From positions 1 through 13,352 of the forward strand of contig JAHFAK010000064.1 of NCBI GenBank assembly GCA_023250585.1: a DNA stretch of 13,352 nucleotides. The letters are read 5' to 3'. Below the pieces are notes generated by a model. The model did not search any database, was not told the DNA's origin, and saw nothing but the letters and a program-made list of their open reading frames with translations. This DNA comes from Deltaproteobacteria bacterium (GTDB lineage: Bacteria; Bdellovibrionota_F; JAHFAK01). Shown here piece by piece: positions 4,240-11,196 of this stretch (within the stretch, counting starts at the first letter, position 1; each line of letters opens with the position of its first letter). The translations under genes were made by a program, and so were the position numbers.

Positions 4240-4363
4240 ATACTAAGGTGCATTCAAACGCTAACTGCGTTGGCTTCGTCGGAGGCTCCTCGACGTATTA
4301 GCATATACGCCTGTGTCGCCTTCTCCTTGCCGCCTTGTTATCATTTTGAATCCACCTTAGTAT
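4240..4363. repeat. Imperfect terminal inverted repeat element (about 124 bp)
   Basis: The arms at 4240-4258 and 4345-4363 are reverse complements over 19 positions with one mismatch (core ACTAAGGTG and CACCTTAGT). The interior is visibly more GC-rich than its surroundings and holds a smaller hairpin (CGTAT and ATACG around 4295-4310). It fills the divergent gap between the FHA gene and panE. An open reading frame runs through it into panE from 4228, but the translated repeat resembles nothing in KPR proteins and is Arg/Ser/Ala-rich, so it is judged non-coding. The layout suggests a MITE-like or REP-like palindrome. It could also carry promoter or folding signals for either neighbour. Confidence 0.7.
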
Positions 4364-4377
4364 TACATACTAAAGAA

Positions 4378-5193
4378 ATGCGAGTAAATAAAATTTTAAA
4401 CACAAAATACAATGAGTTCATTATTATTGGGAATGGGGCGGTGGGGAGTTTTTTGCATTCTCTCTTAGACGATTCTTTTCGGTTATTAGGAAAAAAAGAT
4501 CCATTGGAGATTTCTGACAATTCACTCATTATTATTGCTACAAAAGCGTATGATCTTGAGAATATTTTATCACAATTCAACCGAACTCATTTCCCTGAAA
4601 TTATACTCGTTCAAAATGGTTATTTAGATGATATCATTGCTCCATATCCATTTGCTTTTTTCCGATTACTTCTCGATTTTGGCATCGAGAAAGAAAATAA
4701 TGAATTTCAAGTCCATGGTACGGGGGCATTTTATACCGATCACTATGCAGTGTATCAGATGCTCATGTCGAAAGCTGCTACATACTATTGTGAAGATACC
4801 CTGTGTATGAGATGGAAGAAGCTGATCACGAATTCTGTTATTAATCCAATAAGTGCTCTCTATAATGTTAAAAATAAAGATATTTTTCAGTATGATACTC
4901 TCATAATGAATATTATAGATGAAGGATTACATATTGCTAATGTCTTTCTTAAGCCTGAATTGACATATAAGGAAGCGCATGATTATGTATGCTCGGTTAT
5001 GACCAAAACAGGGAGCAACTCGTCCTCGATGTTACAAGATATACACAAACGAAAAAAGACAGAAATTGAATGCATTAATGGAGCATTAATTCGACTGGGA
5101 AAACACTATGGAATGTCTGTTTCTACCAATCAGCTTTTATATGATCAGGTAAAAAATTTAGAGAAGTCTTATCTATGCTCAGAAAAGTATTAG
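4378..5193 (+). CDS. panE: 2-dehydropantoate 2-reductase (ketopantoate reductase, KPR)
   Basis: The enzyme reduces ketopantoate to pantoate with NAD(P)H, the second step towards coenzyme A. With the ATG at 4378 the product is 271 residues, somewhat short for the family. The Rossmann dinucleotide motif GNGAVG is at residues 18-23, followed by the ATKAYD block (54-59). The C-terminal domain has WKKLITNSVINPISALYNVK (146-165), which includes the probable catalytic Lys148 and the conserved Asn residues. A later SSMLQDI...KTEIECINGAL stretch is typical of KPR. A longer in-frame start at 4228 is rejected because it would translate the palindromic repeat upstream and leave about 65 residues before the nucleotide fold. 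The Shine-Dalgarno signal is weak. The gene overlaps panD by 19 bases and is the first gene of the CoA operon. Confidence 0.93.
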   Translation: MRVNKILNTKYNEFIIIGNGAVGSFLHSLLDDSFRLLGKKDPLEISDNSLIIIATKAYDLENILSQFNRTHFPEIILVQNGYLDDIIAPYPFAFFRLLLDFGIEKENNEFQVHGTGAFYTDHYAVYQMLMSKAATYYCEDTLCMRWKKLITNSVINPISALYNVKNKDIFQYDTLIMNIIDEGLHIANVFLKPELTYKEAHDYVCSVMTKTGSNSSSMLQDIHKRKKTEIECINGALIRLGKHYGMSVSTNQLLYDQVKNLEKSYLCSEKY

Positions 5194-5534
5194 TATCAAA
5201 ATTACATCGAGCACGTGTTACTGACCGAGATACAAGTTACGAAGGTAGCATTACTATTGATGAATCTCTCATGCGACAGGCTCAGCTTCGTCCATATGTA
5301 GATGTTGAGATTTATAATGTGCATAATGGAGCGCGGTTTAATACATATGTAATTCCCGGTGGAACAGGCGAAATTGTTGTTAATGGTGCAGCTGCACGTC
5401 TTGTTGAACGAAATGATCCGATTATTATTTGTCATTATGGATATCTTACCGATGAAGAACTGGGTATTCACAAACCAACCATAATTCTTCTCAATGAGAA
5501 CAATGAAATCATCCGAAAACCTCAGAGCATATAA
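5175..5534 (+). CDS. panD: Aspartate 1-decarboxylase, pyruvoyl type (bacterial PanD)
   Basis: PanD decarboxylates aspartate to beta-alanine. It is made as a proenzyme that cleaves itself at a Gly-Ser bond, turning the Ser into the pyruvoyl cofactor. Here the bond is Gly24-Ser25 in SYEGSITID. Other active-site residues sit at the usual numbers: Lys9, Tyr22, Arg54, Thr57, Tyr58, and the NGAAARL block at 70-76. The 119-residue length is normal. This is clearly the bacterial small-protein family, not the PLP-dependent decarboxylase used by many archaea, which matters because the next-but-one genes are archaeal in type. The gene overlaps panE by 19 bases and panB by 41, so expression is probably tightly coupled. 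Confidence 0.97.
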   Translation: MLRKVLVSKLHRARVTDRDTSYEGSITIDESLMRQAQLRPYVDVEIYNVHNGARFNTYVIPGGTGEIVVNGAAARLVERNDPIIICHYGYLTDEELGIHKPTIILLNENNEIIRKPQSI

Positions 5535-6270
5535 AAATGGCCGTAAGATTGTAAGTATTACTGCCTATGATTATTTCAGCGCGAGGTACGCAGCACAAGC
5601 AGAAGTAGATTTTATTTTAGTTGGCGATTCACTTGGCTGTGTCATTAAAGGTGAAAAAGATACCAAAAATGTTACCATTGAAGAAGTTGCGTATCACACA
5701 CGATGTGTACGAAAAGGCGCTCCTCATATGCTTATTGCTGCTGATCTTCCTATTAATACTTATAGAACTAAAGATGATGCGCTCAAGAATAGCAAGATTC
5801 TTATACAAGCGGGTGCTGATCTTGTTAAGCCAGAAGGCTATTGCCACGAAGTTATCGAATGTTTAATTCAGAATGGATTTCGTGTTATTGGTCATCTTGG
5901 TTTTACCGCGCAGCATTTTGATAGCCCGCGCGTTTTAGGAAAAAATAATGAATCGTACAATGAAATTATTGCTCATGCGAAAAGTTTGGATAGTCTAGGC
6001 ATTGAAGTTCTTATCCTTGAATGCATTGTTGAATCGCTTGCTGCTACTCTTACAAAGCAAGTCGGCGCACTTACCATTGGTATTGGCGCGGGTGCTGCAT
6101 GCGATGGACAAATTTTAGTTTTTCATGATGTGCTTGGATTCGACGTGGGATTCAAACCTCGCTTTTTAAAAAAATACAGAAATATGGAAAAAGAAATGAT
6201 TGATGGAATTAAAGAATATCGTGATGAAGTCATTAATGGAGAATTTCCGAAAAAGGAGTATACGTATTGA
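5494..6270 (+). CDS. panB: 3-methyl-2-oxobutanoate hydroxymethyltransferase (KPHMT)
   Basis: PanB transfers a hydroxymethyl group from 5,10-methylene-tetrahydrofolate to alpha-ketoisovalerate, giving ketopantoate, the committed step. The 258-residue protein has the family landmarks: TAYDYFSA, LVGDSLG with metal ligand Asp45, ADLPI with Asp84, LVKPEG with Lys112 and Glu114, GHLGFTAQ, LECI with the likely catalytic Glu176, and IGIGAGAACDGQILVFHD. From the ATG at 5494, Asp45, Asp84 and Lys112 fall at the same numbers as in the E. coli enzyme. A second ATG at 5503 is also possible. The start lies 41 bases inside panD in another frame, a long overlap for unrelated folds. The stop overlaps the TTG start of the kinase gene. 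Confidence 0.97.
   Translation: MRTMKSSENLRAYKNGRKIVSITAYDYFSARYAAQAEVDFILVGDSLGCVIKGEKDTKNVTIEEVAYHTRCVRKGAPHMLIAADLPINTYRTKDDALKNSKILIQAGADLVKPEGYCHEVIECLIQNGFRVIGHLGFTAQHFDSPRVLGKNNESYNEIIAHAKSLDSLGIEVLILECIVESLAATLTKQVGALTIGIGAGAACDGQILVFHDVLGFDVGFKPRFLKKYRNMEKEMIDGIKEYRDEVINGEFPKKEYTY
6253..6258 (+). promoter_or_regulatory. Strong Shine-Dalgarno site for the TTG-started kinase gene
   Basis: AAGGAG lies 8 bases before the TTG at 6267, within the last codons of panB. It is the clearest ribosome binding site in the operon and decides the non-ATG start. The TTGA junction overlaps the panB stop codon, so reinitiation by ribosomes finishing panB is likely. Confidence 0.75.
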
Positions 6271-7100
6271 AACCATATCTTGCATTTTCGCCCGGAAGCA
6301 TTAGCACAATTTTTTCCCCATATTTTGATAATGACATACTCAAAACCGGATCACTGGGATTGAGTTTTACTATAGATCAAGGAGTATTCTGCGACATACA
6401 GGTATCAGAAGACGAAGGAACTTTTTTTAATAATCGTCATATGCACATTTCGGCTGTTGATTATGTTGCGCATGCACTTGCTCCATCTCCTGTTTCGATT
6501 TATTTTAGAACGTCACTTCCGATTGGTAGTGGATTTGGTGTGAGCGCTGCATGTGCACTGTCATGTGCCTTTGCACTCAACCGATTTTTTGATTTAGGAC
6601 AAAGCGAAGAAGAGCTTTTAAAAATTGCTCATGCAGCGGATGCTCTCTCTCGAACTGGTTTATCCGATGTTATCACGCAATATACTGGCGGTGTGATTTT
6701 ACGATATAAAAAAAATCATCCATTCGTAGTTAAATCTTTGCCAGGTTTTCATAACCAATCATTATGTGCCTATCTTGTAGATACGATCGAAACAAAGAAA
6801 GTATTACAAAACGAATCTCTCCTTTCACGAATTCAACAGGTAGGAGATTCAATTGTAGCAACTATTGATCAGCATGGCTTTGATTCAATCGATTCTTTAA
6901 TACGGGCGTCATATATTTTTTCTCAAGAATCCACATTGCTTAAAGAAGCAGGTCTTAAAGAAATTCTTGAAAAAATAAATTCGAAAAATGTTGAAGCAAG
7001 CATGATTATGTTGGGGAAAGCGTTCTTTTCTACTCAAGTATTTCCTGATTTCCATTGTATACCTATAAAAATGAGTGATGAGAGAACACGGTATTTATGA
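6267..7100 (+). CDS. Pantoate kinase, archaeal type (GHMP kinase superfamily)
   Basis: This 277-residue protein fits the GHMP-type pantoate kinase (PoK) known from archaea, which phosphorylates pantoate with ATP to 4-phosphopantoate. The GHMP ATP-binding loop is PIGSGFGVSAA (residues 85-95). The N-terminal SPGSISTIF and LKTGSLGLSFTIDQGV segments match the archaeal PoK pattern (a PxHxTxFF-like motif, then GSxGxGxxxxxGV). The DTIETKKVLQNE stretch (about 172-183) resembles the conserved threonine/lysine region of PoK. Position gives independent support: it sits between panB and the dedicated next enzyme of the archaeal route, with 4-base overlaps on both sides. Another small-molecule GHMP kinase is conceivable from sequence alone but unlikely in this setting. 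Start is TTG with a strong AAGGAG. Confidence 0.9.
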   Translation: MKPYLAFSPGSISTIFSPYFDNDILKTGSLGLSFTIDQGVFCDIQVSEDEGTFFNNRHMHISAVDYVAHALAPSPVSIYFRTSLPIGSGFGVSAACALSCAFALNRFFDLGQSEEELLKIAHAADALSRTGLSDVITQYTGGVILRYKKNHPFVVKSLPGFHNQSLCAYLVDTIETKKVLQNESLLSRIQQVGDSIVATIDQHGFDSIDSLIRASYIFSQESTLLKEAGLKEILEKINSKNVEASMIMLGKAFFSTQVFPDFHCIPIKMSDERTRYL

Positions 7101-7840
7101 AAATTCCTTCATCACATCCGCGAGCGCTGTCACTTTCTCTTCGCAATCTTATTGTTGAAGGCATTGAAAAGGGAATTACGAGTATTCATGGCTTAATTGC
7201 TCATGGAAGAGGGGAGGCCTTTGATTATCTTTTAGGAGAAAAAACAACTCACGAAGCACAACATGCACTACGAGTAGCAGCCGCAGAACTCTTATGTGCT
7301 GAATATCCTATTATATCAATGAATGGCAATGTCGCAGCTTTATGTATGAAGGAGATGATTCACCTTGCACAAACACTTAATGCATTTATTGAAGTAAACA
7401 TCTTTCATTTTAGTAAAGAACGAGTGAAGATGATTGAATCGATGGTACGTGAAAATGGTGGAAAAAATGTATTGATGAACGCTGATGATGAGAATTTTAT
7501 TTTACTTCCCGGTATAGATCATCCACGTGCACGAATGCATCCACGAGGAATTGCGCAAGCAGATTGTATTTTTGTTCCCCTTGAAGATGGAGATCGTTGT
7601 GAAGCGCTTGTCAAAAGCGGCAGAAAAGTTATTACTGTTGATCTAAATCCATTATCAAGAACAGCAAGAACTGCAACGATTACAATTGTAGATAATATTA
7701 TGAGAACAATTCCATTACTTATTGAAGAGATTAAAAAATTAAAAGTGAAATCTAAAGATGAGTTAGCAAAAATTATGAATGAATTTGATAATAGAAAGAA
7801 TTTAGATGAAATGGAAGGAATAATAAGAAGAGGAGCGTAA
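7097..7840 (+). CDS. 4-phosphopantoate--beta-alanine ligase, archaeal type (phosphopantothenate synthetase)
   Basis: The enzyme condenses 4-phosphopantoate with beta-alanine using ATP, giving 4'-phosphopantothenate. It does the joining step that PanC does in most bacteria, but after phosphorylation rather than before. The match to the archaeal family (formerly DUF137) is strong along the whole length: IPSSHPRALSL (3-13), HGLIAHGRGEAFDYLLGE (31-48), ISMNGNVAAL (73-82), EVNIFHF (99-105), PLEDGDRCEAL (161-171), VDLNPLSRTA (181-190) and ITIVDN (195-200). The 247 residues are near the usual size. The start overlaps the kinase stop in an ATGA. The C-terminal 35 residues are charged and less conserved. 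This family is rarely found in bacteria, so its presence beside prfB-bearing DNA suggests transfer from archaea or very old retention. Confidence 0.95.
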   Translation: MKIPSSHPRALSLSLRNLIVEGIEKGITSIHGLIAHGRGEAFDYLLGEKTTHEAQHALRVAAAELLCAEYPIISMNGNVAALCMKEMIHLAQTLNAFIEVNIFHFSKERVKMIESMVRENGGKNVLMNADDENFILLPGIDHPRARMHPRGIAQADCIFVPLEDGDRCEALVKSGRKVITVDLNPLSRTARTATITIVDNIMRTIPLLIEEIKKLKVKSKDELAKIMNEFDNRKNLDEMEGIIRRGA

Positions 7841-7843
7841 TGG

Positions 7844-8093
7844 CTGAGAAGGTGTGAAAAAATCAAGAGAGAGCTCCATTTTCTGAAAAAGAGCGATAGG
7901 AAACTGAAATGTCCAAATCGACTGTCATTGCGAAAACCTGAAGGGTTTGAAGCAATCTCTTCTTACATATGCACGATTGCGGAGTTTATCCCGAACCTGC
8001 TTGAGATTGCTTCGTCGGACAAGAAAACGTGTCCTCCTCGCAATGACAGGTGAGGGACCACGTTCGAAATCTGATTCTTTCACACCTTCTGAG
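7844..8093. repeat. Outer inverted repeat enclosing an inner palindrome
   Basis: Bases 7844-7865 and 8072-8093 are reverse complements over 22 positions with two mismatches (core AGAAGGTGTGAAA and TTTCACACCTTCT). They enclose the inner repeat pair at 7922-8049. The right arm ends 12 bases before the coaBC ATG, and the left arm begins 3 bases after the stop of the ligase gene. The nesting suggests that the inner element inserted into the loop of an older palindrome or hairpin, or that both moved together. Apart from these repeats I see nothing in the 265-base gap. Confidence 0.7.
7922..8049. repeat. Inverted pair of TGTCATTGCGA...GAAGCAATCTC repeats
   Basis: Unit one (7923-7959) begins TGTCATTGCGA and ends GAAGCAATCTC. 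Unit two is the same arrangement on the minus strand (8048 down to 8003). The outer 12-base arms at 7922-7933 and 8038-8049 and the inner arms at 7949-7959 and 8003-8013 are exact complements, while the middle of each unit differs. From memory, repeats of this TGTCATTGCGA/GCAATCTC type occur dispersed in many bacterial genomes as short non-coding palindromes. An open reading frame enters coaBC from 7947 through this repeat, but it is repeat-derived and not counted as protein. Confidence 0.8.
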
Positions 8094-8105
8094 AGATTAC
8101 AAAAT

Positions 8106-9302
8106 ATGCAATCACTATTGAAAGATAAAAAAATCACCATCGGTATCTCTGGTGGAATTGCCGCGTATAAAATTCCATTGCTCATTCGCTTATTGAGTCA
8201 ATATGGAGCTTCGGTGCAATGTGTGGTCACAAACAGTGCACTTGATTTTGTTACTGAGACACTTTTATTTCGTCTGACGAATAAACCTGTTCTTTCTCCG
8301 CAGAAAGAAAATGGATGGATTGAAGATTATCATATTACGGTCAAAAATAATTCGGATCTTTTTATTCTTGCACCTGGAACTCTTAATACAATCGGAAAAA
8401 TTGCAGCCGGTATCGCCGATGATCCATTAACAACAGTTGTCTCTGCGCTCTTTGCAAAGAAAGTTCCCTTGCTCTTTGTTCCTTCGATGAATATCGATAT
8501 GTGGAATAATCCAATCCTGCAAGACAATATTAAGAAACTCAAAAATCTCGACGTACATTTTTGTGGTCCCAATATTGGTGAGCTTGCATGTGGAGAATTT
8601 GGATTAGGTAAAATGAGTGAACCGGAGGAAATTTTTGAAAATGTCGTGTATGTTCTTTCACAAAAAAAACTCAGTGGAAAAAAAGTTTTAATTACAGCTG
8701 GTCCAACGCGAGAGCATCTTGATCCAATTCGTTTTATTTCTAATATTTCTTCAGGCTCACGTGGGTATGCCATGGCAAAGGTATGTGCATACGAAGGCGC
8801 AGAGGTAACGTTAATCAGTGGCCCATCCACGCAAAAAGCTTCTCAATTTGTGCATTCTTTTAAGGCGTGTGTAAGCGCTCAAGAAATGTTTGATATGGTT
8901 ATGTCAGAAATTAAAACTAATGAGTATGATTATTTTATTAGCGTTGCTGCAGTTTCCGATTTTGCTCCTCTGCACTATTATTCTGAGAAATTACCAAAAC
9001 AAGAAATTATGAATCTAGAGCTCAAAAGAAATGAAGATATCCTTGGTACGATAAGTGGAATGAAAAATTCTCTAAAAAAGCCTTTAAAATTAATCGGTTT
9101 TGCGGCTCAAACTCATAATACTTTAGAAATAGCTCGAAAGAAGTTAAAAACCAGGGAGTTAGATTTAATTATTGCTAATACCATAGATCAAAATTTTTCA
9201 TTATATCAGCATGTTACTTTAATAGATAAAAATTTCAATGAGTTAGTAATCACTGGTTCAAATGAGTCTATTGCTCAAAAAATTATTAAAAAAATGCTTT
9301 AA
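8106..9302 (+). CDS. coaBC: Bifunctional phosphopantothenoylcysteine decarboxylase / phosphopantothenate--cysteine ligase
   Basis: CoaB adds cysteine to 4'-phosphopantothenate and CoaC, a flavoprotein, decarboxylates the product to 4'-phosphopantetheine. From the ATG at 8106 the protein is 398 residues, normal for the fusion. The CoaC half (about 1-185) has GISGGIAAYK, catalytic His76, the PSMN motif with Asn129 and Cys162 in ELACGEFGLGKM. The CoaB half (about 189-398) has VLITAGPTREHLDPIRFISN, NISSGSRGYAMA, VAAVSDFAP, LKRNEDIL and GFAAQT. A longer in-frame start at 7947 would translate the palindromic repeats and is rejected. The step is shared by bacterial and archaeal routes, so it fits directly after the phosphopantothenate-forming ligase. 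It is probably in the same operon, separated by the repeat cluster. Confidence 0.96.
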   Translation: MQSLLKDKKITIGISGGIAAYKIPLLIRLLSQYGASVQCVVTNSALDFVTETLLFRLTNKPVLSPQKENGWIEDYHITVKNNSDLFILAPGTLNTIGKIAAGIADDPLTTVVSALFAKKVPLLFVPSMNIDMWNNPILQDNIKKLKNLDVHFCGPNIGELACGEFGLGKMSEPEEIFENVVYVLSQKKLSGKKVLITAGPTREHLDPIRFISNISSGSRGYAMAKVCAYEGAEVTLISGPSTQKASQFVHSFKACVSAQEMFDMVMSEIKTNEYDYFISVAAVSDFAPLHYYSEKLPKQEIMNLELKRNEDILGTISGMKNSLKKPLKLIGFAAQTHNTLEIARKKLKTRELDLIIANTIDQNFSLYQHVTLIDKNFNELVITGSNESIAQKIIKKML

Positions 9303-9450: not shown

Positions 9451-11196
9451 ATGAAATTAATTAAAATAATAATTTTAATACTCTGCCTTTCCTTAGCTAC
9501 GTGTATTAAACCTACGTCAAGTAGCGATGGAAATACAAGCTCCGGTGGAACTGATAGTAATTCATCGAATGATAATCTGACAGTCGATTATGCAACCGTT
9601 GTTGATGAAAATGGTCGCACCGTTCTTATTGATCCTCTCACCGGCGAAGAAATAGGGTATATCGATGCTGAGGGTAATATTGTTATTACCGCAGAAGGAT
9701 ATACAACGGTTGTTGATGCGAATGGGAATATCATTGTAGTCCAGACAGCTGAAGATACAACAGTAAATGAATCAAGTAGTGGAAGTGCAACGGTAGATTC
9801 AACAGATACCGCTGATCTTACTTTTGAAATGTCTACTACTCAATCAAATGATATGGTCGCTCGCTCTGATTTTACTACTGAAGCTGCGGGATTAATTGCG
9901 CGAAGTGATTATTTATTAAAGGAATTAGGATATAAATTTAGCATCATTGATAGGGATAACGATGGAATAAATAATACAAGTGATAATTGTCCTGATAATT
10001 ATAATGCATCGCAAATAAACAGTGATTCTGATGGGTATGGAGATGCTTGCGATAATTGTCCATTGATAGTAAATCCGACTCAACTTGATAACGATAGTGA
10101 TGGAGTAGGAAATGTTTGCGATAATTGCATAAGCACGAGTAATGCCAACCAAGCTGATAGTGACGGTGATGGCGTCGGGAATTCGTGTGATAACTGTCCA
10201 AATGCTTCAAATAGTTCTCAAACAGATACTGATGGTGATAGTCTGGGAGATGCATGTGATACTGCGAACGATGATAGTGATAGCGATGGAATAATGAATT
10301 CATCCGACAATTGTCCAAGTACTTCCAACCCACTTCAAACTGATACAGACAATGATGGCAAGGGCAATGTCTGTGATAATTGTCCTAATGCTGCAAATGC
10401 ATCGCAAGTTGATACTGATGGTGATGGTCTAGGAGATGCATGCGATCCTGACTTGATTGGTGATGATGATAATGATGGAGTAAAAAATGGTTCAGATAAT
10501 TGCAAAACGACAAGTAATGCTAGCCAAACTGACAGTGATAGCGATGGCAAAGGTGATGCATGCGATAACTGTCCTACTATGGCAAACGCGCTTCAAGTTG
10601 ATACGGACGGCGATGGCATAGGGGATGCGTGTGATACTGAAGCACCTAGTGATATAAGAGATGGAAGCCTTGATCAAAGAAAAGAATGGGTGACCGCTTG
10701 GTTCGCTACAAACTGTACGATAGAATTACTTACTCAACAATTTGTTAATAGTGAATTACAGGAAAGCGTTCTTCCTTTCAAAGATGGTAAAGTGTCATTG
10801 AAACCTATTAAAAAGGCTCTCACGAGACATTATGCCATTGCTCTGTGTAATAAAGGTGAATTAGGAGATAAAGTTGCACATAAAGTACAGTTACGAGATA
10901 AATTTTATGTTAAATTAGGCAGAGTGAGGGTAAAACTCTATATACAAGCTACTAATAGTACAATATACCCCAGCGTGTTTCAATATCAGGAGTCAACTTC
11001 TTATCGAGCTTTGCTTGAACGAGACGTCATACCAGAAACCGGTGAGGTTTATGAGAGAGCCGATTTTGATAGGATATCGAGAGACGAATTGAAAGAAAGC
11101 AGTTCATCGGCATTTGATAAAGATGGCGATGGATTACCTGATAACTTTGATTGTGATCCTAAAGACTCTGCAAAAAGTTGGCAATGTTCTAAATAA
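9451..11196 (+). CDS. Probable lipoprotein with eight thrombospondin type-3-like calcium-binding repeats
   Basis: The 581-residue protein starts with a hydrophobic signal ending LATC (Cys18). Thr at the position before Cys is unusual for a lipobox, so lipidation is likely but not certain. A Ser/Gly/Asn-rich linker follows, then a region with three related strands containing D-x-x-G (about residues 49-98). Residues 178-394 hold eight 23-residue units of the form DNCP...N..Q.D.D.DG.GDAC, as in thrombospondin type-3 and OmpA-linked repeats, with Asp-rich loops that bind calcium and paired Cys. Residues 395-581 form a separate domain I do not recognise, ending with one more calcium-loop motif, DKDGDGLPD (556-564). 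It is probably a rigid, calcium-stabilised surface protein. Partner and function are unknown. A candidate promoter and a CRP-like palindrome precede it. Confidence 0.88.
9982..10632 (+). repeat. Tandem repeat tract: eight 69-base units with three half-unit spacers
   Basis: Within the preceding gene the 69-base unit, encoding 23 residues, is repeated eight times. Half-unit spacers (pattern D.D.DG..N.S) stand before unit 1 (residues about 166-177), after unit 4 (residues about 270-285) and after unit 6, giving a 4+2+2 order. Units 3 and 7 have lost the usual Pro after DNC, having Ile and Lys. Nearly all units keep the Cys pair. The layout points to growth by duplication of blocks and possible length change by recombination. 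Confidence 0.9.

Follow-up and report, generated by a model that had tools for sequence, protein, structure and literature searches.

The locus analysed here raises the question of whether a bacterium can build coenzyme A (CoA) with pantoate kinase (PoK) and phosphopantothenate synthetase (PPS), two enzymes that have been termed "unique to the archaea" (Shimosaka et al., 2019, PMC6650551). The locus lies in a stretch of 13,352 nucleotides (the window), which is contig C131 of a 2.24-Mb bacterial draft genome (164 contigs, 96.7% complete, 1.13% estimated contamination). Judged from gene content and homology, the answer is very probably yes: the locus would be a hybrid CoA operon, in which transferred archaeal-type PoK and PPS replace PanC and pantothenate kinase.

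An earlier note on this DNA had read panE, panD, panB, a kinase of the GHMP family, a ligase and coaBC in this order on one strand, with overlaps among the first five genes. All six genes were confirmed by family matches (Table 1), whose scores exclude chance as the source of these identities, and four overlaps were found, of 19 bp (panE/panD), 41 bp (panD/panB), 4 bp (panB/PoK) and 4 bp (PoK/PPS). The second of these is reduced to 32 bp if panB begins at the ATG at 5503, which is as likely a start as 5494. For its part, PanE scored 114.6 with TIGR00745, below the cut-off of 141. PanD contains the Gly-Ser cleavage motif (YEGSI), and its PDB matches were PanD chains; the best solved relatives of PanB and CoaBC were 1m3u (9e-52) and the CoaBC structure 6tgv (9e-55), respectively. 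Just upstream of panE, a 19-nt inverted repeat (95%) with an 86-nt loop was observed (4240-4363). No Rfam match was obtained within the window, and promoter and terminator scans of the window gave results at or below chance.

The coaBC reading frame had been listed from position 7947, which falls within a palindromic spacer that the first 53 codons of the frame would cross. The TIGR00521 match starts at residue 58 of this frame, just past the ATG at 8106, and the predicted true start of coaBC is 8106, not 7947. With this start, the gap between PPS and coaBC measures 265 bp. The nested inverted repeats that occupy it, with perfect inner arms of 12 nt (7922-7933 and 8038-8049), look like a small palindromic mobile element; beyond a 16-nt match, no further copy was found in 25 kb of the genome's other contigs. 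Of the earlier assignment of coaBC to the operon, adjacency and common orientation were retained, but the spacer sets the gene apart, so that coaBC may or may not share a transcript with the five-gene run.

Table 1. Genes and spacer of the putative hybrid CoA locus (positions in the window)
Feature	Position	Strand	Evidence
panE, ketopantoate reductase, bacterial ApbA/PanE family	4378..5193	+	PF08546 (ApbA_C) 8.4e-30; TIGR00745 5e-33
panD, pyruvoyl aspartate 1-decarboxylase	5175..5534	+	TIGR00223 132.5 bits (cut-off 106)
panB, ketopantoate hydroxymethyltransferase	5494..6270	+	TIGR00222 240 bits (cut-off 207.6)
PoK, predicted archaeal-type pantoate kinase, GHMP family, TTG start	6267..7100	+	NF040725 1e-36
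PPS, predicted archaeal-type phosphopantothenate synthetase	7097..7840	+	PF02006 6e-68; NF010324 330.6 bits
Spacer between PPS and coaBC, with nested inverted repeats	7837..8100		29-nt arms 7837-7865 / 8072-8100 (86%)
coaBC, bifunctional phosphopantothenoylcysteine decarboxylase / phosphopantothenate-cysteine ligase	8106..9302	+	TIGR00521 359 bits (cut-off 219.7)

The ligase is a predicted member of the PPS family by both a curated cut-off and its conserved positions. It reached 228.3 bits with PF02006 (cut-off 26.4) and exceeded the cut-off of NF010324 (227), and its score with the equivalog NF041123 (292.4) was slightly below the 300 set for that model. By sequence, its only solved relatives were 3wdk (9e-74) and 4mb0 (6e-73), both of them phosphopantothenate synthetases; of 58 columns with a conservation of 95% or more among 59 other rows, it retains 55.

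The identity of the kinase is weaker than that of the ligase, but clear: by sequence, it appears closer to the pantoate kinases than to the rest of the GHMP kinases. Pantoate kinase models yielded 126 and 89 bits and the mevalonate kinase model 37 bits, with E-values of 1e-36 for the NCBIfam pantoate kinase model versus 3e-9 for mevalonate kinase. The best solved relative was the pantoate kinase 6jbc (3e-15), and the next PDB match (5e-6), a mevalonate kinase, came nine orders of magnitude behind. Another GHMP specificity was rejected, the mevalonate and homoserine kinase models scoring much lower. The score with NF040725 (126.4 bits) is under the equivalog cut-off of 380, and so is that of a Woesearchaeota kinase encoded a few kb from PPS (146 bits). 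The protein retains 24 of 28 near-invariant columns, the deviations being E125D, G33S, G94A and G133S. The scores below the equivalog cut-offs and these four changed residues were counted against a replacement of the bacterial enzymes by the archaeal-type pair. An AlphaFold model of the kinase, made from a 3-row alignment, had a mean pLDDT of 51, too poor for a fold search.

The earlier note had suggested that panC and coaA or coaX might be missing, and none of them was detected in the 96.7%-complete genome. These absences rest on profile searches: PanC (PF02569), CoaX and CoaA gave no match in the window's genome, and 9, 7 and 10 of the 14 control genomes, respectively, were positive. In a broad draw of bacterial genomes, PanC was present in 166 of 192. 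The genome-wide search that had been proposed for coaD and coaE located both on other contigs, CoaD on C88 (TIGR01510, 187 bits) and CoaE on C133 (TIGR00152, 168 bits). A candidate gene is available for every reaction that leads from ketoisovalerate and aspartate to CoA. With no PanC, CoaA or CoaX detected, and with coaD and coaE elsewhere in the genome, PoK followed by PPS is therefore the one route that can be recognised between pantoate and 4'-phosphopantothenate. If completeness is taken as the per-gene chance of detection, both PanC and a kinase would be missed by bad luck in about 1 case in 1000. A second bacterium with PoK and PPS (G040), in which no PanC was detected either, lends further support to the replacement.

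It could still be that a pantothenate kinase that escaped detection, for instance one of type II, is also present, and that the cell combines salvage of pantothenate with synthesis through PoK and PPS. The type II search gave no match in the window's genome, but no control genome matched either, and the draft may lack some 3% of the genome; the lack of a positive control and the 96.7% completeness of the draft were both counted against a full replacement. We nevertheless regard such a supplementary kinase as unlikely, since the CoaA and CoaX searches were empty in the presence of positive controls and the type II search was empty too.

In the proposed pathway, PanB and PanE would produce pantoate and PanD would yield beta-alanine from aspartate. 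The archaeal-type PoK would then convert pantoate to 4-phosphopantoate, which the archaeal-type PPS would join to beta-alanine at the expense of ATP, giving 4'-phosphopantothenate. CoaBC would carry this on to 4'-phosphopantetheine, and CoaD and CoaE, encoded elsewhere, would complete CoA. The earlier proposal that CoA is built from ketoisovalerate and aspartate through PoK and PPS thus holds as far as the gene set is concerned, which is complete; the activities and the order of the steps are assigned by homology.

That order might be reversed, with the ligase making pantothenate from pantoate and beta-alanine and the GHMP kinase then phosphorylating pantothenate, which would amount to the bacterial order of steps carried out by unrelated enzymes. 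In a further bacterial genome (G708; L106:6835-8629), an archaeal-type PPS gene comes immediately after coaX, which encodes type III pantothenate kinase, and PoK is not alongside; a ligase of the PPS family may therefore precede a kinase. In this genome, either PPS makes pantothenate, or CoaX or another kinase makes phosphopantoate. A reversed order would also agree with the pantothenate synthetase activity that a Methanosarcina member of the PPS family reportedly has. However, the best models and the best solved relative (6jbc) of the partner kinase at our locus are pantoate kinases, its PPS retains nearly all conserved positions, and the Thermococcus kodakarensis pair phosphorylates first (PMC6650551). 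Ligation before phosphorylation is quite improbable in view of these observations, and phosphorylation of pantoate first remains the preferred order.

A chimeric or archaeal contig, or a contaminated bin, is hardly credible: while a draft of 164 contigs with 1.13% estimated contamination would allow for such an artefact, the panB/PoK junction between bacterial and archaeal-type genes is itself a 4-bp gene overlap, as is the PoK/PPS junction, the contig also carries the bacterial genes prfB, nadD and pyruvoyl panD, composition is uniform (G+C of 0.33 to 0.40 along the contig, 0.368 in PoK, 0.358 in PPS and 0.35 in two other contigs of the genome), and PoK-PPS was found also in complete and near-complete bacterial genomes. 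The prfB gene lies at 1782-2882 (TIGR00020, 530.8 bits), in agreement with the earlier description of PoK and PPS alongside a bacterial pyruvoyl PanD in prfB-bearing DNA.

Downstream of coaBC (9451-11196) lies a gene for a lipoprotein-like protein that has several thrombospondin type 3 repeats and falls below the cut-off of the related MtsC family of cell-cell cohesion proteins. The sample held one class-mate of the window's genome (G001, 86% complete) and no nearer kin. Of the pathway, this class-mate showed only CoaD and CoaE, with no match for PanB, PanC, PPS or CoaBC, and it may rely on imported precursors.

PPS was detected in 5 of 386 widely drawn bacterial genomes, which belong to four lineages: the window's genome, G040 and G536 (both from one other phylum), G708 and G716. 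The earlier note had put the system forward as a candidate for an undescribed one. PoK-PPS is rare in bacteria and not unique to the window's genome, PPS occurring in several other bacterial lineages, and these carriers lower the surprise of the finding. In the phylum of G040, PPS was present in 63 of 84 species and PoK adjoined it in several, while in the loci read the pair was not next to other pan genes. The neighbours of PoK in G040 encode sulfatases and phytanoyl-CoA dioxygenase, a setting that we take to be reminiscent of Poribacteria. In G716, a complete genome on a single contig of 2,472,645 bases, PoK and PPS overlap and share a strand with metH, while panB, coaC, coaB and panD lie a few kb away on the opposite strand (L105:2771-11904). 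The G716 proteins are 26% (PoK) and 50% (PPS) identical to those of the window. A gene of the malate/ureidoglycolate dehydrogenase family was observed beside the G716 locus, and its product might act as ketopantoate reductase. Overlap of PoK-PPS with panE-panD-panB was seen only at the window locus.

PoK and PPS occur in some DPANN archaea as well (L003 and G192, Woesearchaeota), PPS being found in 5 of the 119 sampled; G192 also has PanB, CoaBC, CoaD and a bacterial-type CoaE. This is in contrast to a paper of 2019 in which Nanoarchaeota are listed as lacking both enzymes.

In both trees, the window's proteins (PoK and PPS, respectively) had long branches and were placed close to DPANN archaea and to the second bacterial phylum, at a distance from Thermococcus, G716 and a Thaumarchaeota MAG. 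The copies of the second phylum (G040 and kin) formed a separate, strongly supported clade. A single origin of all bacterial copies was rejected (AU test, p values of 0.004 for PoK and 0.043 for PPS), while a shared origin of the window and second-phylum copies was not (0.125 and 0.485, respectively). Because one origin for all bacterial copies was rejected, at least two gains of PoK-PPS in bacteria appear likely. Methanogens and most other archaea are absent from the trees, which for this reason do not fix the donor. No relatives of PPS were found in plasmid, phage or viral-contig collections, and none of PoK in the plasmid collection; carriage as mobile-element cargo was rejected on these grounds.

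The pair at our locus would have been acquired horizontally, from an archaeon or from a bacterium already carrying PoK-PPS, and then joined to a bacterial pan operon, the ancestral genes presumably being lost. We lean slightly towards the broader view that several bacterial lineages exchanged PanC and pantothenate kinase for PoK-PPS by separate transfers, with the pair being wired into the pan operon in the present case.

A complete hybrid pathway in a bacterium lacking the standard genes would show that, even in an essential pathway, a difference between domains is open to exchange. In the reading of genomes, the absence of panC and pantothenate kinase easily leads to a bacterium being called a pantothenate auxotroph, while some such bacteria would make CoA de novo by PoK-PPS. 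CoA control and the response to pantothenate analogues are also expected to differ in carriers. If the broader view is right, carriers could not use free pantothenate, would be indifferent to those pantothenate analogues that need pantothenate kinase, and would control CoA at another step. The neighbouring coaX and PPS of G708, and similar mosaics, would then represent further stages or variants of the swap.

In the titles and abstract openings of the open-licence literature, no earlier report of PoK or PPS in bacteria was found. The enzymes and their chemistry are known; what appears new is that the host is a bacterium lacking the standard genes and that the pair sits inside a panE-panD-panB operon. 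Compared with the classical bacterial CoA route, PanB, PanE, PanD, CoaBC, CoaD and CoaE of the window's genome belong to the same bacterial families, whereas PanC, CoaA and CoaX were undetected. The PoK-PPS route of T. kodakarensis (6jbc, 3wdk) uses the same two enzyme families in place of PanC and pantothenate kinase (PMC6650551). Unlike it, the window belongs to a bacterium, in which a pyruvoyl PanD and a bacterial CoaE take the place of the archaeal beta-alanine enzyme and the archaeal dephospho-CoA kinase, and its pair overlaps the panE-panD-panB operon. Since CoaE is bacterial and PanD pyruvoyl, the genome does not encode the complete archaeal CoA pathway; among the pathway genes found, only the two middle steps are of predicted archaeal type. 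G040 and its kin share with the window the adjacency of PoK and PPS, but their pair lies away from other pan genes and forms a separate clade. In G716, PoK and PPS overlap as in the window and lie within a few kb of panB, coaC, coaB and panD, but on the opposite strand and behind metH.
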